Positions 21,080 to 39,526 of a DNA stretch of 64,000 nucleotides are shown here, piece after piece (the first letter of the stretch is position 1; each line of letters opens with the position of its first letter). The position numbers and the translations under genes are program-made. The DNA comes from Thermoanaerobaculia bacterium (GTDB taxonomy: Bacteria > Acidobacteriota > Thermoanaerobaculia > UBA5066): contig JAJVIN010000020.1 of the NCBI GenBank assembly GCA_022071945.1, forward strand, positions 1-64,000, in the 5' to 3' direction. The notes under the pieces are model-generated. The model did no database searches, had not been told where the DNA came from, and was given only the letters and a program-made list of their open reading frames with translations.

Positions 21080-24000
21080 ATGTCCGTGACATCAGATCCG
21101 CACCGGTTCTTCACCCGTCGACTCGTCGGAGCCGTTGCCGCCACCGTCCTCCTGGCAGGGGCGCTGGCGTCGAGTCCGGCACGGGCGATCCCGCCAGCCG
21201 AGCGGACCGCGCTGATCGACCTCTACACCAACACGAACGGGGCGGGCTGGGCCACCCAGACCGGATGGGACACGCAGACGCCCGGAACGGAGTGCACCTG
21301 GTTTGGCGTCTGCTGCTGGGACGGCGCCACGTGCTCCGGAGGCACCAACGTCACGAGTCTCAACCTGAATGCCAATGGCCTCAGCGGGACCCTTCCGTCA
21401 ACGATAGGAGATCTGACGGCGATCCAGTACCTGAGGTTGAACAGCAACGCGCTGACGGGAAGCCTCCCGGCATCGATCTCGAATCTGAGCGCCCTGATCG
21501 AGTTCGAAGCCGCGGGCAACTCGCTCAGCGGGAGCATCCCGTCGGGAATCGGGGGCAAGCCGAGCCTTCAGCTTCTCGTCCTCTCGGGGAATCAGTTCTC
21601 CGGCTCGATTCCGCCAGAGATCTGGGGACTCACGAACCTTCAGATTCTCGCGCTGGCCGCCAACCAGCTCACGGGGACCATCGATGCAGGAGTCGGAAAC
21701 CTCACGAACCTCCAGGAGCTGTACCTTCGCTACAACTTCCTGAGCGGGCCGATCCCGACGGAGATCGGGAACCTCACGAGCCTCCAGTTCCTCAGCCTGG
21801 ATGGCAACAGCCTGGTATCCCCGATCCCGACATCGATGACGAACTTGACCGCGCTCGTGGCGGGTGGACTGGACATCTCCTTCAACGCCCTCGACACCAC
21901 GGACGGCCCCCTGATCGCGTTTCTGAACTCCAAGCAGTACGGCGGAGACTGGCAGAGTACCCAGACCATCCCGCCGCCGGGGCTGGCCACTTCGAACCCG
22001 ACCGACACCACGATCGATCTCTCGTGGACATCCATCCCCTTCAACGGAAGCTCCGGCTACTACGAGATCCAGTCGAGCACCACGATGGGGGGTCCGTACT
22101 CGTACGTCGGACAGACCGCGGACAAGCTTGCGACGGGAATCGTCGTCTCGGGACTCAACCCCGTGACGACCTACTACTTCGTCGTCCGAACGGTGACGGA
22201 CCCCCTGGGTCCCCCGTTCAATCCGGGAACCGTCACCAGCGAGTTCACCGCGGAGGTTTCAGGCACGACGCTGTCCTCGTGCACCTACGCCCTCATCCCG
22301 GCTTCCTCCTCGCCGCCTGCCGGGGGCGGAACGGGGCTGACCTTCCAGGTTTCGACCCTACCCGGGTGCCCGTGGTCCGCCGCCACAAACGACAGCTGGA
22401 TCCAGGTCACGGGCGGCACTCCTGGCGTGGGCACCGGAACGGTCACCTATGACGTCGACCCGAACACGGGGCCCGCCCGCCAGGGCTTCATCGACGCCGG
22501 CGGCGAGATCTTCACGGTCAACCAGGCAGAGGGCTGCACCGCGAACTCCTCATTCGTGCCAACAAGCGCGAACCCGCCAGCTTCCGGCGCGACGGGCCTC
22601 GGGTTCTCGCTCTCGACGGATGGCGCCTGCTCCTGGGAGCTCGTTCCGAGCGACCTCTGGATCACGATCACGAGCGGTCTCTCGGGGTCCGGACCAGCGG
22701 CCGTCTCCTTCGACGTGGCCGCAAACCCTGGTCCAGCTCGAGTGGGAACGATCACGGCTCTGGGGCAGACCTTCACGATCAATCAGGATGATGGCTGCGC
22801 CTCGAACACGACCCTCAACCCAACCAGCGCCACCCCCCCGGCTGCAGGAGCCGCTGGTCAGACCTTCGATGTCTTGACCCCGGGAGCCTGCCCCTGGACG
22901 GCGGTCGCGAATGACCCCTGGCTCCACATCACCGGGGGGGCCTCGGGCCTCGGGAACGGGACCGTCACTTACAGCGTCGACGCCAACGTGGGACCGCTCC
23001 GAGTCGGGACTATCACGGCCGGCGGGCAGACCTTCACGGTCACCCAGGCCGACGGCTGCGCGTTCTCTCTCGTGCCGGCCAGCGCGAATCCCCCGGCAAC
23101 AGGTGCCACCGGGCTCACTTTCCAGGTTCAGACAGGGGCCGGGTGCCCCTGGACCGCGGTTTCGAACGATGCCTGGATCACCCTGACGGGCGGAGCCTCC
23201 GGGAATGGCCCCGGAACCGTCACCTATGACGTGGCGGCCAACGTCGGGCCCGTCCGCGTCGGGACCCTCACGGCCGGCGGGCAGACCTTCACGGTCACCC
23301 AGGCCGACGGTTGCGTGTTCTCTCTCGTGCCGGCCAGCGCGAATCCTCCGGCAGCGGGTGTCTCGGGCCTCACCTTCCAGGTTCAGACAGGGGCCGGGTG
23401 CCCCTGGACCGCGGTTTCGAACGATGCCTGGATCACCCTGACGGGCGGAGCCTCCGGGAATGGCCCCGGAACCGTCACCTATGACGTGGCGGCCAACGTC
23501 GGGCCCGTCCGCGTCGGGACTCTCACGGCCGGCGGGCAGACCTTCACGGTCACCCAGGCCGACGGCTGCGCGTTCTCTCTCGTGCCGGCCAGCGCGAATC
23601 CCCCGGCAACAGGCGCCACCGGGCTCACTTTCCAGGTTCAGACTGGAGCCGGGTGCCCCTGGACCGCGGTATCGAACGATGCCTGGCTCACCTTGACAGG
23701 AGGCGCTTCCGGGAATGGCCCCGGAACCGTCACCTATGACGTGGCGGCCAACCCGGGCCCCCAGCGCGTCGGGACCCTCACGGCCGGCGGGCAGACCTTC
23801 ACGGTCACCCAGGCCGACGGCTGCAACGCCAGCACCACACTGTTCCCGACGAGCGCCAACCCACCGGCCTCCGGAGCGACAGGCTTGACGTTCCAGGTCC
23901 AGACGACCGCGGGGTGTTCCTGGACAGCTGTCTCCAACGCAGCCTGGATCACGATCACGGCAGGGTCCGCCGGAACTGGAAACGGGACCGTCACTTACGA

Positions 24001-27000
24001 CGTCGCCGCGAACCCGAGTCCGGCCCGGGTCGGCACGATCACCGCCGGAGGGCAGACCTTCACGGTCAATCAGGCGGACGGCTGCGCCGCCAATACCAGC
24101 CTCGTGCCCTCGAGCGCGAACCACCCGGCAAGCGGAGCGTCCAGTCAGGCCTTCCAGATTCAGACGGGCGCGGGATGCCCGTGGACGGCGGTCTCGAATG
24201 CCAGCTGGATCACTCTCACGTCGAGCGGTTCCGGGAGCGGCCCCGCGAGCGTCGTCTACAACATCGCCGCCAACCCCGGCCCAGCCAGGAATGGCACGGT
24301 CACCGCGGCTGGCCTGACTTTCACGGTCAACCAGGCGGATGGGTGCACTCTCAACACGACGCTCCTCCCCACAGGCGCCAGTCAACCGGCTGCCGGGGCT
24401 ACGGGCCAGGGCTTCCAGGTCCAGGCCGCTGTCGGCTGCAGCTGGACAGCCGTTTCCAATGCCGCCTGGATCACGATCACAGCCGGCGCCGCGGGCTCGG
24501 GTCCGGGCGGCGTCACCTATGACGTTGCCGCAAACTCAGGGCCCGCCCGGAACGGAACGATCACGGCCGGCGGTCAGACGTTCACGGTGACACAGGCGGA
24601 CGGATGTCTCGCCAACACCACCCTCGCTCCCACCAGCGCCTCTCCCCCGTCGGCTGGCGCCACCGGATCGACATTCCAGGTTCAAACCGCCGCCGGATGT
24701 GCCTGGACGGCGGTCTCTAACGCCGCCTGGATCACCATCACCGCCGGCTCATCCGGAACGGGTCCGGGGACGGTGACCTACAACGTCGCCGCGAATGTGG
24801 GCCCGGATCGCACCGGGACTCTCACCGCGGCAGGGAAGACCTTCACGGTCACCCAGACGGACGGCTGCAACGCCAACTCCACACTCACCCCCGCGAGCTC
24901 TTCCCCGCCCGCGGAGGGCGCGGCGGGCCTGGCCTTCCAGGTCCAGACGGCACCGTCGTGCGCCTGGACGGCCGTTTCCAACGTGGCCTGGATCACGATC
25001 ACGGCCGGCGCCTCCGGCACGGGTCCCGGCACCGTCGCCTATAGCGTCGCGGCGAACGCGGGTCCTGCCCGGACCGGCACGATCACCGCCGCGGGGCAGA
25101 CCTTCACGGTCAACCAGCCCAACACCTGCACCTCGGGCACGGTTCTCTCCCCCGGCTCCGCGACGATCCCGGCGGCCGGGGCCACCGGACAGAGCTTCCA
25201 GATCCAGACGTTTGCGGCCTGCCCGTGGACGGCGGTCTCCAATACTCCGTGGATCTCCATCACGTCCGCGACAGCGGGAACAGGCCCGGGGACCATCACC
25301 TTCGACGTGGCTTCCAACCCGGGACTCGGCAGGACGGGCACGATCACTACCGCCGGCCAGACCTTCTCCGTCATCCAGGGTGAGGGTTGCCAGGCTGGCG
25401 CGGCCCTGACTCCGGCGAGCTCGTCCGCCCCGGCGGCGGGAGCCACGGGCCAGGTGCTCAACCTCTCGATTGCGGAGGGCTGCCCCTGGACCGCCTCGGC
25501 CCTGGACCCGTGGATCACTCTCACTTCGGAAACCTCGGGCGCCGGCAATGCGACCCTGAGGTTCAGCGTCGATCGAAATACGGGGAGAGCGCGGAGCGGC
25601 CGGATCTCGGCAGCTGGTCTCTTCCATACGGTCAACCAGGAAGACGGCTGCGCAGAGGGCACCACCCTCTCTTCGCCGGGCGCGAGCGTGCCCGCCGCGG
25701 GGGCCGTGGGGCAGAGCTTCTCGATCGCGGCTTCGCCGGATTGCTCCTGGACGGCGGTCTCCGATGCCGCCTGGATCTCGATCCTGTCGGGGACCCCGGG
25801 AAGCGGCGCCGGCACGATCGTCTATAGCGTTGCGGCGAACGCAGGCCCGGAAAGGTCCGGCACGATCACGGCAGGTGGAAAGACATTCACCATTACGCAG
25901 GCCGATTCCTGCACGGCGGGAGCGACCCTCAACCCGTCGAGCGCATCGGTTCCGGTCGCCGGAGCCTCCGGCCTGACCTTCCAGGTCGCCACCTCGGCCG
26001 CTTGCCCGTGGATGGCCGTCGCGGAGGACCCCTGGATCACGATCACCGCGGGCGCTTCTGGCACCGGAAACGGAACCGTGACCTTTAGCGTCGCCCCCAA
26101 CGATGGGCCAGACAGGACGGGCACGATCACCGTCGCCGGTACCGCCTTCACCATCAATCAGGCTCCTGGATGCTTCACTCCCTCGGTCCCGCGCATCTCG
26201 AGCCACCCGGTCGCCCCGGTCCTGGCCGGGAACAGCTTCACCGTCGCCTGGGACCCCGTTCTCGACCTTCCGAGCACGGGCTTCTACCGCCTCCACATCG
26301 CGAACAACGCGGCGTGCGCCTCACCCGTCTCGAGCACCACCACGGGTCTGTCGGTCACGGTGCCCACCGAGCCCGGCAAGGTGGTCACGTACTGCATCCA
26401 GATCCAATCCGTCGCGGGAGGCATCTGCCCGCCCGCGAACACATCTCCCCTGTCGGAGCCGGTCCTCGTCGAGGTCCGCCCGCTGCCTGCCTCGTTCACT
26501 GTCATTCAAGGTCAGCTCCCGGCTGCCCGGACCAACGTCAACGGTCCTCCGCCATCCGGATCGACCGTCGTCTTCCGCAACATCGGAGAGTCGGCCGGAA
26601 CGTTGACGCTCTCCGCGACGGGCGGGTTCTTCTCCATCGCGCGCCAGAACGTTCTGGAGGTCGCCGCCGGGACGGATCTCGAGGTCGGCCTCCTGTTCAC
26701 CACCGCCAACACCACGGTCGAGGGCATCCAGAGCGGCGAACTCACCGGCACATGGAGCGTCGCGGGAGAAGCACTCTCGGTGTCGACCCCGATCACGCTG
26801 ACGGTCCTTGCCGGATCGAGCCAGCCGACGGGTGGGATGAAGCTCGAGCCGGTCGGCTCGGCCACCATCACCTTCAGCCTGCCCGCCGGACCGGCTTCTG
26901 TCCGGTTCGGCCAGAACGTCCTCAACCCAGCGCCGCAAGACGTGCTCATCAGGAACACCGGATCCCTTCCCGTCAGGATCTCTCCGACGATCGGGCCGGG

Positions 27001-28894
27001 AGGGACGTGGCTTTCCATTTCCGGGGACTTCACGACGCCCATTCCGGCTTACACCGAGCGGACCTTCACGCTCTCCGTGGATCGAAGCCGCCGGACATCC
27101 GAGGAAGGCGCGCCGCCGCTCTCCACCATCCTGAGAATCGAGAACGTCGATGGCAACCCGGACGACGCGGCGGTCTTCGAGGTCATCGACGAGGAACCGC
27201 CCCCGCCCGTCTCCGGCACGAACCGGGCGGAGCTCCTCGACACGGAGTACTCGCTCATCGTCGGCTCTTCCGTCAGCACGAGCTCGTCTCCGGCCGGCGG
27301 CAAGAGCTGGCTCTTCGGAGCCCCCGAGAACACCCAGTACCAGTCCGACGGCTGGATCCGGAATCGAAGCTCCGACCAGATCTCCGTCGACCTCTACTAC
27401 ACCCCTGACAGCGCTCAGGGACTCACCGACCCGGGCGTCAAGAAGAACACGGTCACCCTCGACGGATACCGGAGCTACCGGCTCTCGGACTTCGTGAAGA
27501 GCCTCTTCGCCGAGAACGGGAGCGGACTCGTCGAGGTCCGCTCGAGGCAGCTGCCCCAGCTCTCGATCCGGCAGATCGTCGACTCCGTCACGATCCGGAA
27601 CGGAATCCCCTACAACAACGGCGCTGAGTTCCCGCTCGTCGTCTCGGGAGAAGGCGTCTCCGCGCAGGGTTCCGCCGGCACGGGGGACCGCATCATTCTG
27701 GCGGGAATGAAGGGTCCGAAGGCGGGATTCAGGACCAATCTGATCTTCTCCGAGACCATCGGCAAGCCGGTCGCGGTGAGGGCCCGCCTCTACGGAACCG
27801 ACGGCCGCAAGCTGGGCGAGAAGAAAGTCGCCATCAACCCCTACTCCAAGACCCAGGTCAACGGCGGGGATCCCGAGCTTTTCCCCATCCCCTACGACAA
27901 CGCAACGGTCGTCGTCGAACCCCTCTCGGGAGAGGGCTTCGTTTCGGTCGTGGCCACAGTGATCGACAACGCCTCGGGGAGCTACTTCATCCGGCTCGGA
28001 ACGGTTTCCGCAAGGCCCGCGCAGGCCACCCGCACGTCAAAGGCGGTCACATCCGGGTTTTTGCCGGTCGTCAGCCGGGAGGAAAGCCCGGACACCTTCT
28101 ACACGACACGGCTCTCGGTCACCAACGCCTCCGAGTCGGATGCCACGATCAACGTCACGTTCCTGCCCGAGAAGGGCTACGGAGTTCCCAGCGAACCGGT
28201 GACCGTTGTCGTCCCGAAAAAGGAAAGCGGCGAGGGCGAGGATGGCCCCAAGTCCGTGACCTTCGGGAACGTCCTGGAGGAGCTCCTCGGGATCCAGTCC
28301 AATGCGCGCGGAATGTTGAAGATCGAAGGTGAGCTCGAGTCGCTCGTCTTCGCCACGGAGACCTCGACTCCCCTCGACAAGACGGACCCGGAAGCGGGCC
28401 GCTCCCTATCCTCTTTCAATCTGGCGCCTGGCTCGGACGCGAAGTTCGCCGGGGCCTTCTCGATCAACTCTCCAGAAGTGACGGGTATCCGGCAGACCGA
28501 GAGCGACACGGCCAAGGCGGAGGTCTCGGTGCCGGCGATCGAGGAGGGCTCCCAGTACCGGACCAACCTGATCCTGGCCGAGCTCGCGGGCGAGAAGGGC
28601 AAGGTCAAGGTCATCCTGAGAAAACCCGGCGGCGCGGCCCTCGGGGAGCCCCTCGTCGTCGAGCTCGCGCCCTTCGAGAGGAAACAGATCGACCGGGTCA
28701 TCACGACGATCGTGAAGCCGCCCAGCGGGACGGGTGAGTACAAGGACATCGAGATCATCGTTCAGGCGCTCGAGGGGAAGGCCAAGTCGATCGCCCTCGT
28801 CTCGCGGGTCGCATCCGACCCGAAATCGAGACGGCTCGACACCTACGTCCTCGGGCCCAGCACGAGCGGGAGCGCGAAGAAGGCGAAGAAGTAA
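21080..28894 (+). CDS. Giant secreted protein with plant-type LRRs, 15 BACON modules and shared C-terminal module
   Basis: A 2604-residue protein. ATG 21080 follows AGGAGG by seven bases and gives a good signal peptide (VGAVAATVLLAGALASSPARA). Residues about 40-85 form a Cys/Trp cap (ECTWFGVCCWDGATC). About 85-285 are LRRs of the plant LxGxIPxxIGNLTxL type. About 300-390 is a fibronectin-III-like domain. Residues about 399-1696 hold 15 BACON-like modules of about 85 residues, each with CPWTAVSNxxWITIT...GxGTVTYDVAANxGPxRxGTITAGGQTFTVxQADG. About 1697-1800 is another FnIII-like domain, and about 1800-2604 is a module also found at 34775 and 63225. It is probably a cell-surface or released carbohydrate- or protein-binding adhesin. 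A perfect palindrome follows the stop. Confidence 0.9.
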   Translation: MSVTSDPHRFFTRRLVGAVAATVLLAGALASSPARAIPPAERTALIDLYTNTNGAGWATQTGWDTQTPGTECTWFGVCCWDGATCSGGTNVTSLNLNANGLSGTLPSTIGDLTAIQYLRLNSNALTGSLPASISNLSALIEFEAAGNSLSGSIPSGIGGKPSLQLLVLSGNQFSGSIPPEIWGLTNLQILALAANQLTGTIDAGVGNLTNLQELYLRYNFLSGPIPTEIGNLTSLQFLSLDGNSLVSPIPTSMTNLTALVAGGLDISFNALDTTDGPLIAFLNSKQYGGDWQSTQTIPPPGLATSNPTDTTIDLSWTSIPFNGSSGYYEIQSSTTMGGPYSYVGQTADKLATGIVVSGLNPVTTYYFVVRTVTDPLGPPFNPGTVTSEFTAEVSGTTLSSCTYALIPASSSPPAGGGTGLTFQVSTLPGCPWSAATNDSWIQVTGGTPGVGTGTVTYDVDPNTGPARQGFIDAGGEIFTVNQAEGCTANSSFVPTSANPPASGATGLGFSLSTDGACSWELVPSDLWITITSGLSGSGPAAVSFDVAANPGPARVGTITALGQTFTINQDDGCASNTTLNPTSATPPAAGAAGQTFDVLTPGACPWTAVANDPWLHITGGASGLGNGTVTYSVDANVGPLRVGTITAGGQTFTVTQADGCAFSLVPASANPPATGATGLTFQVQTGAGCPWTAVSNDAWITLTGGASGNGPGTVTYDVAANVGPVRVGTLTAGGQTFTVTQADGCVFSLVPASANPPAAGVSGLTFQVQTGAGCPWTAVSNDAWITLTGGASGNGPGTVTYDVAANVGPVRVGTLTAGGQTFTVTQADGCAFSLVPASANPPATGATGLTFQVQTGAGCPWTAVSNDAWLTLTGGASGNGPGTVTYDVAANPGPQRVGTLTAGGQTFTVTQADGCNASTTLFPTSANPPASGATGLTFQVQTTAGCSWTAVSNAAWITITAGSAGTGNGTVTYDVAANPSPARVGTITAGGQTFTVNQADGCAANTSLVPSSANHPASGASSQAFQIQTGAGCPWTAVSNASWITLTSSGSGSGPASVVYNIAANPGPARNGTVTAAGLTFTVNQADGCTLNTTLLPTGASQPAAGATGQGFQVQAAVGCSWTAVSNAAWITITAGAAGSGPGGVTYDVAANSGPARNGTITAGGQTFTVTQADGCLANTTLAPTSASPPSAGATGSTFQVQTAAGCAWTAVSNAAWITITAGSSGTGPGTVTYNVAANVGPDRTGTLTAAGKTFTVTQTDGCNANSTLTPASSSPPAEGAAGLAFQVQTAPSCAWTAVSNVAWITITAGASGTGPGTVAYSVAANAGPARTGTITAAGQTFTVNQPNTCTSGTVLSPGSATIPAAGATGQSFQIQTFAACPWTAVSNTPWISITSATAGTGPGTITFDVASNPGLGRTGTITTAGQTFSVIQGEGCQAGAALTPASSSAPAAGATGQVLNLSIAEGCPWTASALDPWITLTSETSGAGNATLRFSVDRNTGRARSGRISAAGLFHTVNQEDGCAEGTTLSSPGASVPAAGAVGQSFSIAASPDCSWTAVSDAAWISILSGTPGSGAGTIVYSVAANAGPERSGTITAGGKTFTITQADSCTAGATLNPSSASVPVAGASGLTFQVATSAACPWMAVAEDPWITITAGASGTGNGTVTFSVAPNDGPDRTGTITVAGTAFTINQAPGCFTPSVPRISSHPVAPVLAGNSFTVAWDPVLDLPSTGFYRLHIANNAACASPVSSTTTGLSVTVPTEPGKVVTYCIQIQSVAGGICPPANTSPLSEPVLVEVRPLPASFTVIQGQLPAARTNVNGPPPSGSTVVFRNIGESAGTLTLSATGGFFSIARQNVLEVAAGTDLEVGLLFTTANTTVEGIQSGELTGTWSVAGEALSVSTPITLTVLAGSSQPTGGMKLEPVGSATITFSLPAGPASVRFGQNVLNPAPQDVLIRNTGSLPVRISPTIGPGGTWLSISGDFTTPIPAYTERTFTLSVDRSRRTSEEGAPPLSTILRIENVDGNPDDAAVFEVIDEEPPPPVSGTNRAELLDTEYSLIVGSSVSTSSSPAGGKSWLFGAPENTQYQSDGWIRNRSSDQISVDLYYTPDSAQGLTDPGVKKNTVTLDGYRSYRLSDFVKSLFAENGSGLVEVRSRQLPQLSIRQIVDSVTIRNGIPYNNGAEFPLVVSGEGVSAQGSAGTGDRIILAGMKGPKAGFRTNLIFSETIGKPVAVRARLYGTDGRKLGEKKVAINPYSKTQVNGGDPELFPIPYDNATVVVEPLSGEGFVSVVATVIDNASGSYFIRLGTVSARPAQATRTSKAVTSGFLPVVSREESPDTFYTTRLSVTNASESDATINVTFLPEKGYGVPSEPVTVVVPKKESGEGEDGPKSVTFGNVLEELLGIQSNARGMLKIEGELESLVFATETSTPLDKTDPEAGRSLSSFNLAPGSDAKFAGAFSINSPEVTGIRQTESDTAKAEVSVPAIEEGSQYRTNLILAELAGEKGKVKVILRKPGGAALGEPLVVELAPFERKQIDRVITTIVKPPSGTGEYKDIEIIVQALEGKAKSIALVSRVASDPKSRRLDTYVLGPSTSGSAKKAKK
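23057..23821 (+). repeat. Three near-identical 255-bp BACON repeats
   Basis: Modules 4, 5 and 6 of the giant protein begin at 23057, 23312 and 23567 (TGCGCGTTCTCTCTCGTGCC or one base different), exactly 255 bases apart. They differ at only scattered positions, while the surrounding modules diverged much further. This looks like recent duplication or gene conversion. Confidence 0.9.
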
Positions 28895-29039: not shown

Positions 29040-30590
29040 ATGATCAAGTTCTTCGGGCGGGTCGCGATCCGCTGGAAGATCATCCTCGTTGCGCTTCTCA
29101 CGACGGTCGCGGTTCTCGTTGCCGTTGCCGCGGCCATCTTCACCTATGACAGCGTCTCTTTCCGCCGCCGGATGGTGCGGGACACGATCGTCCTGGCGAA
29201 CATGCTGGAGGTCTCCTGCGCCCAGGCGGTCGTTTTCGACGATCCGCGCAGTGCCGAGGAGGCGCTTTCGACCCTGAAGGCCCAGTCACAGGTCGTCGCG
29301 GCGGCCGTCTACGGCAAGGAAGGGAACGTCTTCGCGACCTACATGCGGAGCGGCCTGACGGGGTGGGAGCCCCCCAAGGTGGAGCGAAGCGGCCACCGCT
29401 TCGAGAAGGATCACCTTGCCCTCTTCAAGACCATGGAGTTCGGCCGGAAGGAAGTCGGCTCTGTCTACCTTTTCCTGGACATGACGGCCCTGGCTGCGAG
29501 AAAGGCCGACTACGCCAAGATCCTCACCGTCGATCTGCTCGCTGCCATCCTTCTGGCGTTCTTCCTTTCCTCGAAGCTGCAACACCTCATCTCCGGCCCG
29601 ATCCTCAGGCTCGTCGGTGTCACGAAGGAGGTCTCCGAGAAGAAGGACTACTCCCTTCGCGCCCAGAAGGAAACCTCGGACGAGATCGGCCTTCTGATGG
29701 ACGGCTTCAACCACATGCTGGTGGAGGTCGAGAAGAGAGATGTGGACCTGCAAGACAAGAACGAGAAGCTCCGGGAGCAGGGCGAGGAACTTCGGCAGAA
29801 AAACGAGCAGATCCTCGACAGCATTCGCTATGCCCAGCACATCCAGGCATCGATTCTGCCCCTGCCGGAGTACCTCTCGGCCGCGCTGCCCGACCACTTC
29901 GTCATCTTCCGGCCCTGCCACATCGTCTCGGGGGATTTCTACTGGTGCCACAGGAGCAATGGCCGGGTGTTCCTCGCCGTGGTCGACTGCACGGGACACG
30001 GAGTCCCGGGCGCGTTCATGTCGATGATCGGCGGAAGCCTCCTCCGGGGCGTCGTCGTCGAGAAGGGGCTGACGGATCCCGCGAAGATCCTGGAGCACCT
30101 GAACACGGGTGTTCGCGAGACCCTGCAGCAGACCGTGGAACACCTCGGCGCGCAGGACGGCATGGACGTCTGTCTCTGCGTCGTCGATGAAGAGTCGGGA
30201 AGCGTCAGCTTCGCCGGGGCGAAAAGACCGCTGTACGTCGTCAAGGTCAAGGGTGATGCAGAGCCGGAGCTCGTCGAGCTGAAGGGGGACAGATCGTCGA
30301 TCGGAGGCCGGGGAGAGACACGCTCGTACTCGACCAAGATCGTCGAGACCGCTCCCGGGGACATGATCTATCTGACGACGGACGGCTATTCGGATCAAAA
30401 CGGAACCACCGGGAAGCGATTCGGAGCCGAGCCGTTCAAGACCCTGTTGAGGTCGATCGCAAAAGGTCCAGCAGCCGATCAACGTCAGAGATTAGAATTG
30501 GCTCTCGATACTCACCAGGGGACGGAAAAGCAGCGGGACGACATTACTGTCGTCGGGGTCAGAATCCAGCCAGGTAAAGGGACCCCCTGA
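29040..30590 (+). CDS. siaA: SiaA-like membrane sensor with HAMP and SpoIIE/PP2C phosphatase
   Basis: A 516-residue protein from ATG 29040 (MIKFFGRVAIRWKIILVALL). The frame is open upstream but non-protein-like. TM1 is about 12-34, the periplasmic sensor about 35-150 (CHASE8-like, SFRRRMVRDTIVLANMLEVS), TM2 about 158-178, HAMP about 180-235, a coiled coil follows, and PP2C is about 300-510. The phosphatase keeps SGDFYW, VDCTGHGVPGAFMS, LTTDGYSDQ and RDDITVVGV, which include the metal aspartates. In Pseudomonas aeruginosa SiaA dephosphorylates SiaC. The next two genes here are SiaB- and SiaC-like, so the same role is likely. Confidence 0.88.
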   Translation: MIKFFGRVAIRWKIILVALLTTVAVLVAVAAAIFTYDSVSFRRRMVRDTIVLANMLEVSCAQAVVFDDPRSAEEALSTLKAQSQVVAAAVYGKEGNVFATYMRSGLTGWEPPKVERSGHRFEKDHLALFKTMEFGRKEVGSVYLFLDMTALAARKADYAKILTVDLLAAILLAFFLSSKLQHLISGPILRLVGVTKEVSEKKDYSLRAQKETSDEIGLLMDGFNHMLVEVEKRDVDLQDKNEKLREQGEELRQKNEQILDSIRYAQHIQASILPLPEYLSAALPDHFVIFRPCHIVSGDFYWCHRSNGRVFLAVVDCTGHGVPGAFMSMIGGSLLRGVVVEKGLTDPAKILEHLNTGVRETLQQTVEHLGAQDGMDVCLCVVDEESGSVSFAGAKRPLYVVKVKGDAEPELVELKGDRSSIGGRGETRSYSTKIVETAPGDMIYLTTDGYSDQNGTTGKRFGAEPFKTLLRSIAKGPAADQRQRLELALDTHQGTEKQRDDITVVGVRIQPGKGTP

Positions 30591-30617
30591 AGGAAGCTCG
30601 AGGAGCGAGGAGCGGCA

Positions 30618-31247
30618 ATGGATCGTACGAGCCTTTACGCGCACTACCAGACGATGGGACAGGACGGGATCGTCTTCATGTTCAAGGGGAGCATGTCCCA
30701 GGCGCTCCTCGTGAAGTTCGGCGACATGATCCGCGAGGACCTCTTCACGACGTCCAAGAAGATGTCGGAAATCCGGGCCGTCTTCTCGGTCTTCATCGAG
30801 CTCGCCCAGAACATCAACCGCTATTCGGCCGAGAGGGTGGAAGCCGGCGGAGAATCCGAGACGGGCAGCGGCATCATCGTCGTGAGCGAGAGTGAGGGGC
30901 GGTACACGGTCGCCTCCGGAAACAAGATCGAGAATAGCCGCCTCAGCTACATCGTCCCGCGCCTGGAAATGATGAAGGGTCTCAGCTCCGAGGCGCTCAG
31001 GAAGCTCTATCGCGAACAGATCAAGGCCACCGCGCCCCCCGAGGGGAGCGTCGGGGCCGGCCTCGGTCTCTTTGACATCGCCAAGAAATCCGGCGGTGGA
31101 CTCAACTACCTGGTCCATCCCATCAACGAGGAGTTTTCCTTCATCGAGCTCTTCGTCGAAATCAGAAAAGAGAACAGCTCGCTGTCGCAGGCCATTTCGT
31201 CTCAGGACGTCATCAAGGGGATCGAACGTGGACAGACTAAGGATTGA
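30618..31247 (+). CDS. siaB: SiaB-family protein kinase
   Basis: A 209-residue protein. It matches the SiaB family by FMFKGSMSQALL near the N-terminus, a helix SVFIELAQNINRYSAE holding the GHKL-type N box, GIIVVSESEGRYTVASGNKI, and the Gly-rich GAGLGLFDIAKKSGG near 150. SiaB phosphorylates SiaC and so keeps it inactive in Pseudomonas, opposing SiaA. It lies 27 bases after the siaA-like stop and its end overlaps the siaC-like start by 20 bases, which favours balanced co-expression. Confidence 0.87.
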   Translation: MDRTSLYAHYQTMGQDGIVFMFKGSMSQALLVKFGDMIREDLFTTSKKMSEIRAVFSVFIELAQNINRYSAERVEAGGESETGSGIIVVSESEGRYTVASGNKIENSRLSYIVPRLEMMKGLSSEALRKLYREQIKATAPPEGSVGAGLGLFDIAKKSGGGLNYLVHPINEEFSFIELFVEIRKENSSLSQAISSQDVIKGIERGQTKD

Positions 31248-31602
31248 AAGAACCAAGTACACCCTGGAAATCGACCTGGACCCCGTTTCGGGAAAACTCC
31301 AGCTGACGGGAGAGTCTTACCCCGAGAACGCCCGCGCCTTTTTTGCGCCCGTCTTCTCCTGGCTCGACCAGTACCTCAAGACAAACCCAGAGAACGTGAA
31401 TGCCGAGCTCAGCCTCGACTACCTCAACACCAGCTCGACCAAGTGCCTCCTGGATTTCCTGGAGGTTCTCGAGAAGTTCCGGAGCGGCGGGGGGACGGTC
31501 AACGTCACCTGGTTCTACTCCAAGGACGATGAGGACACCCTGACGATGGGCCAGGACATCGCCGAGGACACGGAGCTGCCCATCCAGTTCGTCGAGAGAT
31601 AA
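31228..31602 (+). CDS. siaC: SiaC-like phospho-regulated switch protein (DUF1987)
   Basis: A 124-residue protein starting at GTG 31228 with AAGGGG eight bases upstream. The longer in-frame reading upstream is only a shadow of siaB. IDLDPVSGKLQLTGESYPEN and LDYLNTSSTKCLLDFLEVL are typical of the SiaC/DUF1987 family, an anti-sigma-antagonist-like fold. Thr68 in NTSST falls at the site reported as phosphorylated in P. aeruginosa SiaC. In that system unphosphorylated SiaC binds the stalk of the diguanylate cyclase SiaD and activates it. Here the following gene is a class III cyclase with an N-terminal coiled coil. Confidence 0.88.
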   Translation: MDRLRIERTKYTLEIDLDPVSGKLQLTGESYPENARAFFAPVFSWLDQYLKTNPENVNAELSLDYLNTSSTKCLLDFLEVLEKFRSGGGTVNVTWFYSKDDEDTLTMGQDIAEDTELPIQFVER

Positions 31603-32868
31603 GTGGAAACACGAACGGAAAGCCCCGAACGGGAGGAACTCTTCTCCAAGGAGATGGAGATCCTCGAGAAGGCGAAGTCTTCGCTGAAGGCCGCGGAGCA
31701 GGCTTCTCAAGAGAGCCTCTCGGACTTCGGCACCGTCATCCGCCAGTACGAGAAACTCCTCAAGCAAGCCACCAAGCTCACCCGGCTGGGCGACGGATAC
31801 CAGAGGAAGATGCTCCTGGCCTACGAGGAGATCGAGAGGCAGAAGCTCGTCCTGCAGGAGAATGAACGTCAGCTCGAGATCAGGAACCGCTTCATCCGCG
31901 AGACGTTCGGCCGCTACCTGTCGGACGACGTCGTCACGGGCCTTCTCGAGGCTCCAGAGGGCCTCGCGCTCGGTGGAGAGAAGCGGACGGTCACCATCAT
32001 GATGACCGACCTGAGAGGCTTTTCCGCCCTGGCCGACGGCCTCGACCCGGCGGAGGTCGTCACCCTCCTCAACGGTTACCTCGAGGTGATGACGGGCATC
32101 ATCCAGAAGTGGGCCGGCACCATCGACGAGTTCATCGGCGATGCCATCCTCGGACTCTTCGGCGCACCGCTCCTGCGTCCAGACGACCACGTTCGCGCGG
32201 CCGCGTGCGCACTCGAAATGCAGCTCGCGATCCCCGGCGTCAACGCCATGAACAAGGAGAAGGGGCTGCCCGCCATCGAGATGGGAATCGGCCTGCACAC
32301 CGGCGAGGTCGTCGTCGGAAACATCGGCTCCAAGCTCCGCGCCAAGTACGGCGTCGTCGGCCGAGCGGTCAACTTCGCTTCTCGAGTCGAGTCGTACACG
32401 GTGGGTGGACAGGTCCTCATCTCGCGGGAGCTCCGCGAGGCCCTGGGCCCTCTCGCCATCATCGGCTCCGAGATGCAGGTGCACCCCAAGGGAATGCAGC
32501 CCGTGACCATCTACGACCTCGTGGGCCTCTCCGGCGACAACGGGATCCGCCTGGAACAAAAGAACGTCTCGAGGGAAAAGATGAAGACCGAACTCCCCGC
32601 GACGTTCATCGTGGTCGAGGGCAAGGACGCCCGCGGAGACGAACACCACGCCACCTTCGTGGCCGTGTCCGAGGAGTTGCTCGAGGCCGAAGTCAACAGC
32701 GACATCCCGCTCAAGCCGCTTTCGAACCTCCGATTCCGCCTCCAGGCCGCCCCGTCCACCGACGTCTACGCGAAGGTCCTGGCGGGTGAGGCGGGCCACG
32801 GCACTTTCATCATCCGGTTCACGTCGCTCCCCGAGACGGCCAAGAACATCATCGCCGCGGCTCGGTAG
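31603..32868 (+). CDS. Class III nucleotidyl cyclase in the SiaD position
   Basis: A 421-residue protein with GTG start abutting the siaC stop. Residues about 8-100 are a charged coiled-coil stalk. About 125-305 is a class III cyclase domain with metal aspartates D136 (MTDLRGFS) and D180 (EFIGDAIL) and transition-state N257 and R261 (GRAVNFASRVES). The usual purine-selecting Lys is Glu here (E176), as in some guanylate cyclases, so ATP versus GTP cannot be assigned. About 325-420 is a PilZ-like beta domain without a clear RxxxR motif. Its place after siaABC suggests activation by SiaC through the stalk. Confidence 0.88.
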   Translation: METRTESPEREELFSKEMEILEKAKSSLKAAEQASQESLSDFGTVIRQYEKLLKQATKLTRLGDGYQRKMLLAYEEIERQKLVLQENERQLEIRNRFIRETFGRYLSDDVVTGLLEAPEGLALGGEKRTVTIMMTDLRGFSALADGLDPAEVVTLLNGYLEVMTGIIQKWAGTIDEFIGDAILGLFGAPLLRPDDHVRAAACALEMQLAIPGVNAMNKEKGLPAIEMGIGLHTGEVVVGNIGSKLRAKYGVVGRAVNFASRVESYTVGGQVLISRELREALGPLAIIGSEMQVHPKGMQPVTIYDLVGLSGDNGIRLEQKNVSREKMKTELPATFIVVEGKDARGDEHHATFVAVSEELLEAEVNSDIPLKPLSNLRFRLQAAPSTDVYAKVLAGEAGHGTFIIRFTSLPETAKNIIAAAR

Positions 32869-34774: not shown

Positions 34775-37700
34775 TCAGTTGTCCGGTGAGAGGGGAGAGC
34801 CGCCGCAGGCTCCCCCGAGCGTGAAGATGTCGGCTCTCTTCGACGACGGGTTGTTGTCGATCTTCGTGACGAGAGCGAGGACCCTTCCCTTCCCCTCCAC
34901 GGCATGGATTTCGACCTGGATGTCCTGGAAGTCGGCCGCACCCGAGTCGACTTGAAGAACATCGCGGATCACTCTGTTGATCTGGAGCCGTTCGTTGCGA
35001 TCCAGCGGATAGACCTTCTCGCCGATCGCGGCACCGGAACCCGGACGAACGAGCCTGACCTTGACCACGAGAGGCTCGCCAGCCAGTTCGGCCAGGATGA
35101 GATTCGTCCGGAAGGCGTATCCCTCCTCGATCGCCGGGAGCGTGACGATGGAAGCGGATGACCCAGAGGCTTCGGTTCCAACGACTTCGGTGGCGCTCGG
35201 AGAATAGACTCCGAAGGGGTCTCCCTCTGGTTTGCAGGGCGCCGGATTCAGAGCCGACAGGGAGCGTCCGCGCGAGGGGTTCTTCGGATCGATGGGCGTC
35301 GAGGTCTCGCTCGCCACGGTCAGCGGGGCGAGATCCCCCTCGAGCTTGACCATCCCGGCGGAGTCCTGGGTGATCTCGAAAAGCTCGGTCACCACGTCCT
35401 GGAAGACGACCGCCCGAGGTCCTTCTGCCCTGGGGGGAATCGTGATTCGCCTCGCGATGGACGCCTGCTGGTACTTCTTGTCGGGGAGGTAGGTCGCCGT
35501 CAGGGAGATCGCGACTCTCGCAATGTTCGCGATGGTGACCCGCGTCGTGTAGAAGGAGTCATTCGCCGCCACGGACCGGGTCGCCGCTGGAATGAACGCC
35601 GGTTCGGCCGACCGCGGAGAAGGAGCCCTCGAAACCGCACGCAGCGCGTCGTTCACGCGAAAGACCTCGCCGGCCCTCGTCGCGAAGCTCTGGGAGGCGT
35701 TGTCAATGACGGTGGCAAAGACGGCCACCGTTCCACTCCCGATCTTCGGAAGCACCTCGACAGTCCCGCCATCGAACCTTTTGCCGGTGCCGAAGAGTTC
35801 CACATCGGTCGAGTTGACCTGGCTCTTCGAATAGGCAGGCACGTAGACCAGCTTCTCTCCGACAGGGCTCCCCTCCACGTCGTAGACCCGGGCGAGAACC
35901 GTCGCTTCCTTGCCGGTCGTCTCGGCGAAGTGGAGGTTCGTCCGGTATCCGGCGTGCGAATCACGGATCCCGGGAATCAACACGATGGCGTCTCCCACGC
36001 TCGCAGTTCCGCTGCGCGCCACCTGCGGCTGGCGCGCCAACTGCGGCTGGCGCGTCTTCGGTCCCTTTCCGACACCGCTTCCCGACACCACGAGCGGGAT
36101 CTCCGTTCCATATCGAGCGATGACGTCATCGAGAGACCGGATCGAGTCGGTCGTCGCGCGAACGGAGAGCTGGGCAAGCCGCGTCGACCGGATCTCGACC
36201 TGGCCACTGACGTTGCCGGTCTGGAAGAGGCTCCCGACGAGGTCCGAGAGGCGGTAGCTGGCGTAACCCGCTATCGAGAGCCGGTTCTTCCGAACGCCGC
36301 CTCCCGACAGACCGTCCTCGCCGCCCGGTGTCCAGTAGAGGTCGACCGCTTCCTCCGACGAGCCCTGATTCCGGATCCAGCCATCCGAGATGAAAGCTGT
36401 TCCCCCAGAGCCAGGAGCGTTCACGGCCGAGCCGAGAATCAGCGAGAACTCCCCCTCTTTCAGAACCGGCCGGCCTGGGGCGGGAGCGGGAGCCGGCGGC
36501 TCCTCATCGATGACTTGGGCATAGGCCGAGTCCTCCGGATTCCCGTCGACGTTGACGATGATGAGGCCGGTCACGAGCGGCGGCGGTCCATCACTGCTCG
36601 ACCTCTTTCTTCTGTCGACGGCAACCGTGAACTCCCTCGTGGCTCCCGGGGACAGTACGGACGAGAAGTCGCCTCCGACCGAAAGCCAGCCGCCCCCCGG
36701 TCCGATCCGGGAGGCCAATCTGACGGGCGATTCCCCCGTGTTCACGACGGTCACCTGCTGGGGAGGCGGATTCCCCGAACCCGCCTGCCGGAAGGAAAAC
36801 TGATTCGCCGGGAAGAACTGGAGTCGAGATCCCCGGCTATCGATCGGTGCCCCTTCCAGAACCGTCAGCGAGACGGGGCTCGCCAGGGTGCGCGGAATCC
36901 CCCCTTCGAGCCAGGCCGCGACGAGGTTCGCTGTTTTCAATCCCGGCTCCGCTGACGCTCCTGGCGAAAAGACCACGTCGACCCGGACGTCTTCTCCCGG
37001 CCGGACCGAGCCGAAACCTCTCGGGCTCGGTTCGAACAGGGGTCCATTCGAGCTGACGGAGAGACTCCCCGTGGCACTCCCGATGTTCCGGATCACGACC
37101 TCCACGTTGGACGGGAGGGCGGCCCCTTTCTCCACTGTCTGCGCCGGAGCCGCGGCCACGACGACGAACTCGGCGGGCGCGGCCCTGACGGTCGAAAGGA
37201 GAGGCCCTGAAAAGGAACTCGAGCAGCCCTGGCCCGAGACCGCTCTCACGCGGAAGCAGAGTGTCGCGCTCACGCCGCTCGTTGTCGGTATGGTCGCGAA
37301 TGGGGCCCGCGTCTCGATCGTCCTCGGGTTGGCGCAGGCGCCGTTTTCGGAAACCTGAAGCTCGTAGTGCCCCGTCGCGTCTTGCCCCAGTGCCGCGGTC
37401 CACGAGACAGTCACGGGGCTTCCCGCCGTGACTTCCCCCCCGGGCGAGGAGGTGAAGACGGGCGCCGGTGGCGGCACGCACTCGACGACCTCGAGGGAGG
37501 TGGAACGGCTTCCGGGACACCCGCGAGCGTCCGTGGCGACGACCGTCAGGGAGAAGGTGCCGGTCTCGGTCGGGACGCCCGAAAGCGTCCCGCCTTCGAA
37601 CGTCATTCCCGGCGGAAGGGTTCCGGTCTGACTCCATACGTAGGGTGAAGTGCCGCCGGTGGCCGAAAAGACGGCCGAGTAGTCGAGGCCCTTCACCGCT

Positions 37701-39367
37701 CTGTTCAGCGATGCGGGCTCGATCGCGATCTCGGGGCAGTTGAAGCCGGCCTGGTTGATCGAGAAGACGGCCACGCCCGCCACGGTGATCTGGCCACTTC
37801 TCGACTGCGGCGAGCCGTTCGGTCCGACCGAGTAGGTGACCGGGCCTGGTCCGCTGCCGCTGGATCCCGATTGAAGGACGATCCACGCCTGACCGGAACT
37901 CGCTGTCCACGGGCACCCGGCGGCGGTCACCACCGAGAAACGCAGGTTGCTGGCGCCGGAAGCCGGAATGGACGTGCCGGCTGGATCCACCGAATACGTG
38001 CACCCTGCCTGGGTCACGGTGAAGGTCTGACCGCCCGCTGTGATCGTCCCGACACGAGACGAGCCTCCCGTGTTGGACGCCACGGAATAGGTCACGGTGC
38101 CGTTTCCGGAACCACTGGCCCCGCCGGTGACTGTGATCCAGGCGTTATTGGATACCGCTGTCCAGGTGCAGCCCGTCCCCGCCGTCACCGCGAACGTCTG
38201 CCCCGACGCACCCGTTACCGGGATGGACGCGCTCGAGGGCGCAAGGACGTATGTACAGCCCGCCTGGGTCACGGTAAAGGTCTGACCGCCCGCCGTGATC
38301 GTCCCGACGCGAGACGAGCCTCCCGTGTTGGATGCCACGGAATAGGTCACGGTGCCGCTGCCAGAACCGCTGGCCCCGCCGGTGACTGTGATCCACGTGT
38401 TGTTCGAAACCGCCGTCCAGGCGCAACCTGTCGCGGTTGTTACTCCGAAGGTCTGTCCGGACGCCCCCCCGGCCGGGAGCTGGGCCCCGGAGGATGTGAG
38501 GGAGTAGGTACAGCCCACTACCGTCGAGACGACGTTCGAATAGACATCTGGCACGAAGTCGCTGTGATCGAGTCGCAACCGGTACCGTTGCGTTCCAGGC
38601 GGCTGGTTCTGCACCGTGAAGCGGCCCGTGGCACCGGCCGGGCACGCCCTCTCGATCACGCCGCCCAGCGGGGTCCACGTGACCCCGTCTGCCGAGCGCT
38701 CCAGACCCAAGTAGGCAAACTGATCGCTGGCGAGCGTGTGGCTCACAGTGACGGTCGTGCCGGCCGAGGTGGCGGATAGAATCGCCGCGGCGGCCGCCTG
38801 TTGGGCGAAGGTGCCATCCCCCCAGTACGAATTCGAGTTGCTACCGCCGGGGTTATAGAGACTACAGTTCTTGACCTTGATGTGGAAGTTGTAGGACCGA
38901 TTCAGTGGAACCCAAACCGTCGACGACAGACTCGACGTCTCAGCGACGAGAGTCTCGGGACCACTGCTCGAGCAGTATCCCGCACCCTGGAAGGCGTAAA
39001 TCTGATAGACAGTTCCGGCATCCGCGCCCGTCGGCGCTGGCCAGCTGATATCGAGGAGTTGCGTGGCGGGGTTGTAGGTGTAGTAGGGGTAGTCCCAGGG
39101 GAGAGTCGGGCAGGCCAGCTCGGGCTGTGCCTGATCTTGGCGGCTCCGCTCACCGGCCGGGAAGGCCGCTTCGTCGCGGACACGGGTTCCAGCTTCGAGC
39201 ACGCGGGTGACTCCGCCTTCACCATCCGGGCGCAGGAGTTCGATGACCACCACGCCGCCAGATTCACAGGATGGACCGGGTTGACTCGGCAACGAAAGCG
39301 AGTCGGAGCCATTCAGGAAAACACCCGTCGCCAAGAAGGCCAAGGCCAGTCGAAGGGCTCGAACCAT
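34775..39367 (-). CDS. Secreted BACON/Ig/FnIII protein, paralogue of the 2604-residue protein
   Basis: A 1530-residue protein from ATG 39367 with GGGAGGG seven bases upstream. The signal peptide is ALRLALAFLATGVFLNGS. About 230-310 is an FnIII-like region and about 310-570 holds three BACON modules (CTYSLTSSG, CTYVLAPSS, CTYSVDPAG). About 575-665 is a putative Ig domain (LPPGMTFEGGTLSGVPTETG) and about 670-760 an FnIII-like domain. From about 790 to the end it follows the C-terminal module of the 21080 protein block by block (RNIGSATGSLSVS, PVRLASRIGPGGGWLS, SEEAVDLYWTPGG, TETSTPIDPKNPSRGRSLS, IEEGYAFRTNLILAELAGE). Exported, probably surface-associated. Confidence 0.88.
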   Translation of the reverse strand: MVRALRLALAFLATGVFLNGSDSLSLPSQPGPSCESGGVVVIELLRPDGEGGVTRVLEAGTRVRDEAAFPAGERSRQDQAQPELACPTLPWDYPYYTYNPATQLLDISWPAPTGADAGTVYQIYAFQGAGYCSSSGPETLVAETSSLSSTVWVPLNRSYNFHIKVKNCSLYNPGGSNSNSYWGDGTFAQQAAAAAILSATSAGTTVTVSHTLASDQFAYLGLERSADGVTWTPLGGVIERACPAGATGRFTVQNQPPGTQRYRLRLDHSDFVPDVYSNVVSTVVGCTYSLTSSGAQLPAGGASGQTFGVTTATGCAWTAVSNNTWITVTGGASGSGSGTVTYSVASNTGGSSRVGTITAGGQTFTVTQAGCTYVLAPSSASIPVTGASGQTFAVTAGTGCTWTAVSNNAWITVTGGASGSGNGTVTYSVASNTGGSSRVGTITAGGQTFTVTQAGCTYSVDPAGTSIPASGASNLRFSVVTAAGCPWTASSGQAWIVLQSGSSGSGPGPVTYSVGPNGSPQSRSGQITVAGVAVFSINQAGFNCPEIAIEPASLNRAVKGLDYSAVFSATGGTSPYVWSQTGTLPPGMTFEGGTLSGVPTETGTFSLTVVATDARGCPGSRSTSLEVVECVPPPAPVFTSSPGGEVTAGSPVTVSWTAALGQDATGHYELQVSENGACANPRTIETRAPFATIPTTSGVSATLCFRVRAVSGQGCSSSFSGPLLSTVRAAPAEFVVVAAAPAQTVEKGAALPSNVEVVIRNIGSATGSLSVSSNGPLFEPSPRGFGSVRPGEDVRVDVVFSPGASAEPGLKTANLVAAWLEGGIPRTLASPVSLTVLEGAPIDSRGSRLQFFPANQFSFRQAGSGNPPPQQVTVVNTGESPVRLASRIGPGGGWLSVGGDFSSVLSPGATREFTVAVDRRKRSSSDGPPPLVTGLIIVNVDGNPEDSAYAQVIDEEPPAPAPAPGRPVLKEGEFSLILGSAVNAPGSGGTAFISDGWIRNQGSSEEAVDLYWTPGGEDGLSGGGVRKNRLSIAGYASYRLSDLVGSLFQTGNVSGQVEIRSTRLAQLSVRATTDSIRSLDDVIARYGTEIPLVVSGSGVGKGPKTRQPQLARQPQVARSGTASVGDAIVLIPGIRDSHAGYRTNLHFAETTGKEATVLARVYDVEGSPVGEKLVYVPAYSKSQVNSTDVELFGTGKRFDGGTVEVLPKIGSGTVAVFATVIDNASQSFATRAGEVFRVNDALRAVSRAPSPRSAEPAFIPAATRSVAANDSFYTTRVTIANIARVAISLTATYLPDKKYQQASIARRITIPPRAEGPRAVVFQDVVTELFEITQDSAGMVKLEGDLAPLTVASETSTPIDPKNPSRGRSLSALNPAPCKPEGDPFGVYSPSATEVVGTEASGSSASIVTLPAIEEGYAFRTNLILAELAGEPLVVKVRLVRPGSGAAIGEKVYPLDRNERLQINRVIRDVLQVDSGAADFQDIQVEIHAVEGKGRVLALVTKIDNNPSSKRADIFTLGGACGGSPLSPDN
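37990..38510 (-). repeat. 255-bp tandem BACON modules in the second secreted protein
   Basis: The block beginning TGATCGTCCCGAC at 38041 recurs at 38296, again a 255-base period. It includes GAGACGAGCCTCCCGTGTTGGA in both copies. The period equals that of modules 4-6 in the 21080 gene, although the sequence differs. Confidence 0.8.
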
Positions 39368-39526
39368 GGACTCCCTCCCCTCACCCCGAAGCAGCCTAAC
39401 GAGACCACTCGGAGAACCGTGCGGGTCGAACGCAGAGCGCGATTTGTCATCAAGCATGCGAGGGTGCTCTTCCGATGTCAAGAAAACGTGAGCCGGGATC
39501 AGCCCCTCTTTCCCGAGCTGCCGGCC

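Follow-up and report, generated by a model that had tools for sequence, protein, structure and literature searches.

The Sia-type locus

We analysed a four-gene locus in a 64,000-nucleotide stretch of DNA (the window; contig JAJVIN010000020.1) from a Thermoanaerobaculia bacterium, in which genes resembling the SiaABC partner switch of Pseudomonas aeruginosa are followed by the gene of a predicted class III nucleotidyl cyclase. The genes of a PP2C phosphatase, a SiaB-family kinase, SiaC and the cyclase lie end to end on the + strand as a tight operon. The SiaB and SiaC genes overlap by 20 bp, and the TAA stop codon of SiaC abuts the GTG of the cyclase gene, both genes being in the same frame, which suggests translational coupling of the last three genes.

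29040..30590, +, SiaA-like phosphatase: CHASE8 sensor, HAMP, helix and PP2C (SpoIIE) domain; two membrane-spanning segments likely
30618..31247, +, SiaB-family protein kinase (HATPase-like, DUF6272): NF038262 168 bits, cut-off 85; PF19788 1.6e-35
31228..31602, +, GTG start, SiaC-family phosphoprotein: PF09345 3e-38, 130.5 bits against a cut-off of 24.5
31429..31431, +, codon of SiaC Thr68 within YLNTSS, predicted to be phosphorylated (aligned with P. aeruginosa SiaC)
31603..32868, +, GTG start, class III cyclase, predicted guanylyl, with a putative N-terminal SiaC-docking stalk, cyclase transducer element (CTE), catalytic core and C-terminal extension: PF00211 (Guanylate_cyc) 2.4e-23

An earlier note on this DNA had claimed contiguous SiaA-like, SiaB-like and SiaC-like genes, the last with a conserved Thr68, and a fourth gene for a coiled coil plus class III cyclase. 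All four are found where it had placed them, on the + strand and with matching domain profiles, and the fourth product combines a Guanylate_cyc match (2e-23) with an N-terminal helix.

The SiaA-like protein matches SpoIIE (6e-25), CHASE8 (8e-15) and HAMP (1e-6) in Pfam and carries PP2C motifs, including those of the metal site (SGDF, DCTGHG, DGMD, TTDG, RDDIT). Its match to the SiaA equivalog NF038263 (1e-74) covers residues 162-510 only and, at 252 bits, lies under the 700-bit cut-off; the phosphatase is SiaA-like in its PP2C half only, with a different sensor half of CHASE8 and HAMP. The sensor part (29040-29750) scores above the cut-off of NF053592, a sensor of kinases associated with YfiR-like proteins. 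The SiaB-like kinase has Glu61 (ELAQN at 61), at the site suggested to be catalytic in P. aeruginosa SiaB.

SiaC, present exactly once in the window's own genome, was matched in a PDB search by P. aeruginosa SiaC at 1e-19, with YLNTSS identical, and the column of the phospho-acceptor Thr (T66 of P0003) is invariant in our SiaC alignment (A1). At 100.9 bits it misses the cut-off of 150 for the SiaC equivalog NF038265, and it is classed by its profile scores as a member of the SiaC family, not as the Pseudomonas-type equivalog. We modelled SiaC and the cyclase stalk with AlphaFold as a single in-frame read-through chain, the TAA being replaced by Gly. The SiaC part superposed on the P. aeruginosa SiaC structures 7e6g and 6k4f with template modelling (TM) scores, normalised by target, of 0.94-0.95, and a Foldseek search with the model re-found SiaC only.

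A putative SiaC-contact motif on the cyclase stalk

The fourth gene product scores 13.2 bits against the SiaD family NF038266 (cut-off 290), and that match is confined to stalk residues 43-71. It is not a GGDEF SiaD, a class III core standing in place of the GGDEF domain.

31624..31842, +, putative docking domain, residues 8-80, predicted continuous helix (identity to the N terminus of the L029 histidine kinase, see below; AlphaFold helix)
31774..31803, +, predicted core SiaC-docking motif KLTRLGDGYQ, residues 58-67 (GGDEF-only profile; match to SiaD K77-Q86)
31906..31917, +, FGRY of the CTE, residues 102-105 (sequence)
31981..32448, +, class III catalytic core (Pfam match 127-282; metal ligands Asp136/Asp180; alignment)
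32128..32130, +, Glu176, first purine-specificity residue, Lys in adenylyl cyclases (alignment)
32350..32352, +, Gly250, second purine-specificity residue, Asp/Thr in adenylyl cyclases (alignment)
32548..32865, +, C-terminal extension, residues 316-421 (alignments to the receiver-domain cyclase paralogues L003 and L004 extend into it)

In the crystal structure of the P. aeruginosa complex, the stalk residues of SiaD in contact with SiaC include R74, K77, V78, R80, I81, S82, D83, R84, Y85, Q86 and M88; SiaC N67/T68/S69 are contacted by S82, D83 and Q86, Thr68 hydrogen-bonds to S82 and Q86, and a second motif has Gly52 where the first has R84 (PMC8457831). The gripping motif of SiaD is K-V-A-R-I-S-D-R-Y-Q, and its PDB sequence at the two motifs reads LEKVARISDRYQQMM and IARISDGFQS. 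Residues 55-70 of the window cyclase read QATKLTRLGDGYQRKM, and K77, V78, R80, I81, S82, D83, R84, Y85 and Q86 of SiaD align with K58, L59, R61, L62, G63, D64, G65, Y66 and Q67. Identity holds for Lys, Arg, Asp, Tyr and Gln, and the Val/Leu and Ile/Leu exchanges are conservative; Ser82 is replaced by Gly, likewise in many SiaC-linked targets, and G65 equals G52 of the second SiaD motif. The earlier suggestion that the N-terminal coiled coil could serve as the docking surface is thus supported by a residue-level match to the SiaD contacts, a specific motif beyond a generic coiled coil.

A profile built solely from GGDEF proteins encoded next to SiaC (18 segments; E-values scaled to 40,000 open reading frames) matches the window cyclase stalk at E = 4.9e-11. 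For further class III cyclases adjacent to SiaC its E-values lie between 3e-9 and 4e-4, L118 being matched by a mixed profile alone. The GGDEF-only profile also picks up histidine and Ser/Thr kinases, PP2C phosphatases and short membrane proteins with a coiled coil, but it gives no match in the nine class III cyclases of the data set that lie away from SiaC, six of which are encoded in the window's own genome. In the mixed alignment, 22 segments from five output classes, the only invariant columns are an Asp and a Gln, namely SiaD D83/Q86 and cyclase Asp64/Gln67. With this mixed profile the window's own genome contains a single docking segment up to E=10, that of the window cyclase. A non-GGDEF profile (A2) placed SiaD third of 177,635 sequences, in register at both motifs, at E=2, which is supportive only; a single-sequence search of the PDB with the stalk gave no match. 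Covariation between SiaC residue 71 (Ile) and Ser at the SiaD-82 position (11/11 vs 14/34, Fisher p=5e-4) is confounded by descent and was not used.

In the AlphaFold model cyclase residues 8-101 form one 94-residue helix, like the SiaD stalk, and the stalk leads directly into FGRY, a motif of the CTE, which couples coiled coils to class III cores (PMC5995499). The N-R transition-state pair of the core is located in VNFASRVE.

Output swapping and recruitment of cyclases

We examined the surroundings of 133 SiaC genes; for 50 of them a gene on the same strand, no more than 2.5 kb away, encodes a docking segment. These neighbours comprise 19 GGDEF proteins (two being copies of one contig), 10 class III cyclases, 8 histidine kinases (two weak), 5 Ser/Thr kinases, 2 PP2C phosphatases and 6 short or membrane proteins. 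The docking domain, as assigned by profile, is a portable plug that heads GGDEF proteins, class III cyclases, kinases of the histidine and Ser/Thr types, PP2C phosphatases and membrane coiled-coil proteins.

The nearest SiaC-bearing relative of the window, locus L029, is from the same family and a different genus, and provides an output swap. Its SiaB is 68% identical (127/186) and its SiaC 79%, yet a histidine kinase headed by a docking domain (62%, 45/73) stands in the cyclase's place. A cyclase that proved a non-conserved neighbour in related genomes had been named beforehand as a finding that would speak against the switch; the cyclase is indeed replaced in L029, but the docking domain is retained, so that what is conserved is the plug. 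The gene order SiaB-SiaC-class III cyclase recurs in a Leptospiraceae genome (L034), in a further six Spirochaetota genomes (L113-L118, with L131 as a second such locus in the L113 genome) and in one of Cloacimonas (L032). The four-gene order for which the earlier note had proposed a search is thus partly recovered in Spirochaetota and Cloacimonadota: a PP2C gene is visible upstream in several Spirochaetota loci only, the other loci being limited by contig ends or short flanks.

The nearest cyclase paralogues in the window's own genome, L003 and L004, are 48% identical to the window cyclase, align from residue 73 or 76 on, just past the docking motif, and have a receiver domain (confirmed by Pfam for L003) and no docking plug. 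The window gene is therefore, by these alignments, a join of the Sia plug to a response-regulator-type guanylyl cyclase. In a tree of 17 catalytic domains the SiaC-linked class III cyclases occupy at least three separate places, which indicates that such joins happened repeatedly and that these cyclases were recruited at least three times. Both paralogues (L003 at C6:16945, L004 at C9:74250) are of the Cya2 type, with the Glu-Gly pair and the same C-terminal extension behind receiver-like domains, and the genome may hold three differently wired cGMP sources.

The proposed switch and its alternatives

We consider it probable, at roughly 0.76, that the locus encodes a Sia-type partner switch with a guanylyl cyclase output, in which free SiaC docks on the cyclase stalk. 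SiaB would phosphorylate SiaC at Thr68 and, as in P. aeruginosa, hold it off its target; the membrane phosphatase, on sensing a signal, would dephosphorylate it. Free SiaC would then grip the N-terminal stalk at KLTRLGDGYQ, with Thr68 facing Gly63, Asp64 and Gln67 if the P. aeruginosa geometry applies. By analogy with SiaD, bound SiaC would stabilise the parallel dimeric coiled coil of the stalk, and the stalk dimer, via the FGRY element, would position the two catalytic domains to make cyclic GMP (cGMP). Our analysis shows the genes, their order and the catalytic residues, as well as a docking motif that moves between outputs and is tied to SiaC; phosphorylation, activation by unphosphorylated SiaC and the geometry are presumed from P. 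aeruginosa, and cGMP as the product from Cya2.

That tie extends across genomes. SiaC occurs in 14 of 396 Acidobacteriota genomes, and the docking profile (E<=1e-3) matches exactly those 14 and none of the 382 SiaC-negative ones, with one further genome at E 0.005. The non-circular part of this result is five positives outside the profile training and the absence from the 382. In Spirochaetota (198 genomes; only one contributed a profile row) the motif is found in 10 of the 14 genomes that have a strong SiaC, against 1 of 184 others (Fisher p=5e-13); such p-values overstate independence because genomes share ancestry.

Several points weigh against the proposed switch. Many of the 14 Acidobacteriota positives had supplied profile sequences, which makes the positives partly circular. 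The AlphaFold chain has two confident parts (predicted local distance difference test score, pLDDT, 92.7), but its predicted TM score (pTM) of 0.58 indicates no fixed docking pose, a dimer being outside the reach of a one-chain model. Most Bacteroidota SiaB/SiaC loci have no docking neighbour, and our prediction that such genomes would encode an unlinked docking protein failed, holding in 1/40; in the other 39 the motif is nowhere in the genome. SiaC can thus have other partners, and in Bacteroidota it must either have another kind of partner or meet a motif diverged beyond detection. Finally, sequence cannot tell activation from inhibition.

SiaC might dock on the motif and yet inhibit the cyclase, or only localise it. 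The motif fixes the contact and not its consequence, and it also heads kinases and phosphatases with different modes of activation. We nonetheless regard this as unlikely: in the sole measured case SiaC activates its target by dimer stabilisation (PMC8457831), and class III cyclases too require a dimer with an ordered coiled coil before the CTE.

Slightly less likely still is that the product is cyclic AMP (cAMP). In the other nine SiaC-linked class III cyclases Lys is paired with Asp or Thr, as in adenylyl cyclases. The window cyclase (Glu176/Gly250) and its paralogues L003 and L004, however, carry the Glu-Gly specificity pair of the guanylyl cyclase Cya2, with which they group at supports of 100/99, and the nearest solved structure to the window cyclase is Cya2-derived; a single Glu-to-Lys change converts Cya2 to an adenylyl cyclase (PMC5995499). 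The residue pair and the clade make cGMP the likely product. The earlier proposal of cAMP or cGMP rather than cyclic di-GMP (c-di-GMP) holds in that the core is class III and not GGDEF, and can be narrowed to predicted cGMP. With 23 matches to cyclic nucleotide monophosphate (cNMP)-binding domains in the genome, predicted receivers for one or another cyclic nucleotide are available.

SiaC and the cyclase might also be co-transcribed while the real SiaC target is encoded elsewhere, as the mostly absent docking neighbours in Bacteroidota and extra docking proteins distant from SiaC in some SiaC-bearing genomes (L143, L155, L168, L177, L184) would allow; with one SiaC and one docking segment in the window's own genome, we find this very improbable. 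We give just as little credence to the helix being a generic coiled coil or signalling helix (S-helix) beside SiaC by chance: although it sits immediately before a catalytic domain, as S-helices do, including those of guanylyl cyclases (PMC1592074), the docking segment tracks SiaC across genomes and is missing from cyclases away from SiaC, and S-helix identity is rejected by the absence from residues 8-100 of the ERT signature of the central heptad and by docking segments upstream of Ser/Thr kinases (L011, L012), where the S-helix is reported never to occur (PMC1592074).

Comparison with known systems

The locus resembles SiaABCD of P. aeruginosa (PMC7647112, PMC8457831) in its PP2C phosphatase, SiaB with Glu61 and SiaC with Thr68, then a stalked homodimeric cyclase with the same SiaC-contact motif. 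It differs in output, SiaD being a GGDEF protein and the window protein a class III guanylyl-type cyclase, in having one docking motif where SiaD has two, and in the CHASE8 sensor of a phosphatase that scores under the SiaA equivalog cut-off. Cya2 of Synechocystis shares the catalytic core (52% identity over 188 columns), the Glu-Gly pair, the FGRY CTE and a C-terminal extension, but its input is a membrane CHASE2 sensor instead of a docking stalk. In the STAS switches HsbA-HsbD (P. aeruginosa) and BgrV-BgrR (Sinorhizobium), as cited in PMC8457831, a phosphorylatable STAS-like protein likewise controls a cyclase, with STAS in place of a SiaC-family protein and c-di-GMP as output. The S-helix (PMC1592074) is similarly a short parallel coiled coil ahead of diverse catalytic domains, guanylyl cyclases among them, yet has an ERT consensus, is not upstream of Ser/Thr kinases and has no linked phosphoprotein partner.

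A wider role for SiaC

SiaC has been studied as the protein that activates one diguanylate cyclase, with the role of the DUF1987 family left open and action on adjacent proteins suggested (PMC8457831). Our literature search returned SiaC work on P. aeruginosa SiaD only, the GGDEF version, and nothing on a class III cyclase controlled by SiaC or on a docking code; subscription papers and preprints were outside the search, which is not proof of absence. From the distribution of the motif, the SiaC switch looks like a reusable control module plugged onto several kinds of signalling enzyme. We lean, less firmly than for the switch itself, towards SiaC being an activator of general use, controlled by phosphorylation and relying on a single docking code, a portable stalk of ~75 residues bearing [KR][LIVM][TSA]x[LIVM][SG]DxxQ, through which the same SiaA/SiaB switch would serve many homodimeric outputs, in several copies in some cells; the window would be its cGMP version. 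The outputs would be cyclases of three kinds (diguanylate, adenylyl and guanylyl), histidine and Ser/Thr kinases, PP2C phosphatases and membrane proteins, and one phosphoprotein would set several second-messenger and kinase pathways simultaneously. The short motif, readable from sequence, would predict which proteins SiaC should grip and bring signalling by cAMP, cGMP and c-di-GMP, by two-component systems and by Ser/Thr kinases under a single switch. Related genomes offer a natural swap of outputs, the window cyclase is a rare candidate for control of bacterial cGMP synthesis, and the stalk might be a portable part for placing dimeric enzymes under phosphorylation control.

Other loci and neighbouring genes

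In the SiaC-bearing genomes of L143, L155, L168, L177 and L184, histidine kinases and GAF-cyclases with docking domains lie distant from SiaC, which suggests one SiaC with several targets. Some SiaB/SiaC pairs of Bacteroidota (L036-L107) adjoin a gene resembling coaE (dephospho-CoA kinase); at L048, L055, L088, L105 and L170, also Bacteroidota, the docking motif precedes a coiled coil and hydrophobic segments, with no known catalytic domain. Weak SiaC-like proteins of Spirochaetota (L126-L130, L135, L136, L139), some in tandem, have YMNSSTIT for NTSS and are perhaps a separate family near slr1659. The C-terminal domain of the window cyclase had seemed by eye to resemble PilZ, an identity we rejected as Pfam gave no significant match. 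Giant BACON-repeat proteins are encoded on both sides of the Sia operon, at 21104-28894 (+) and 34775-39481 (-); their C-terminal halves are alike, and the former contains an fn3 domain and leucine-rich repeats as well.

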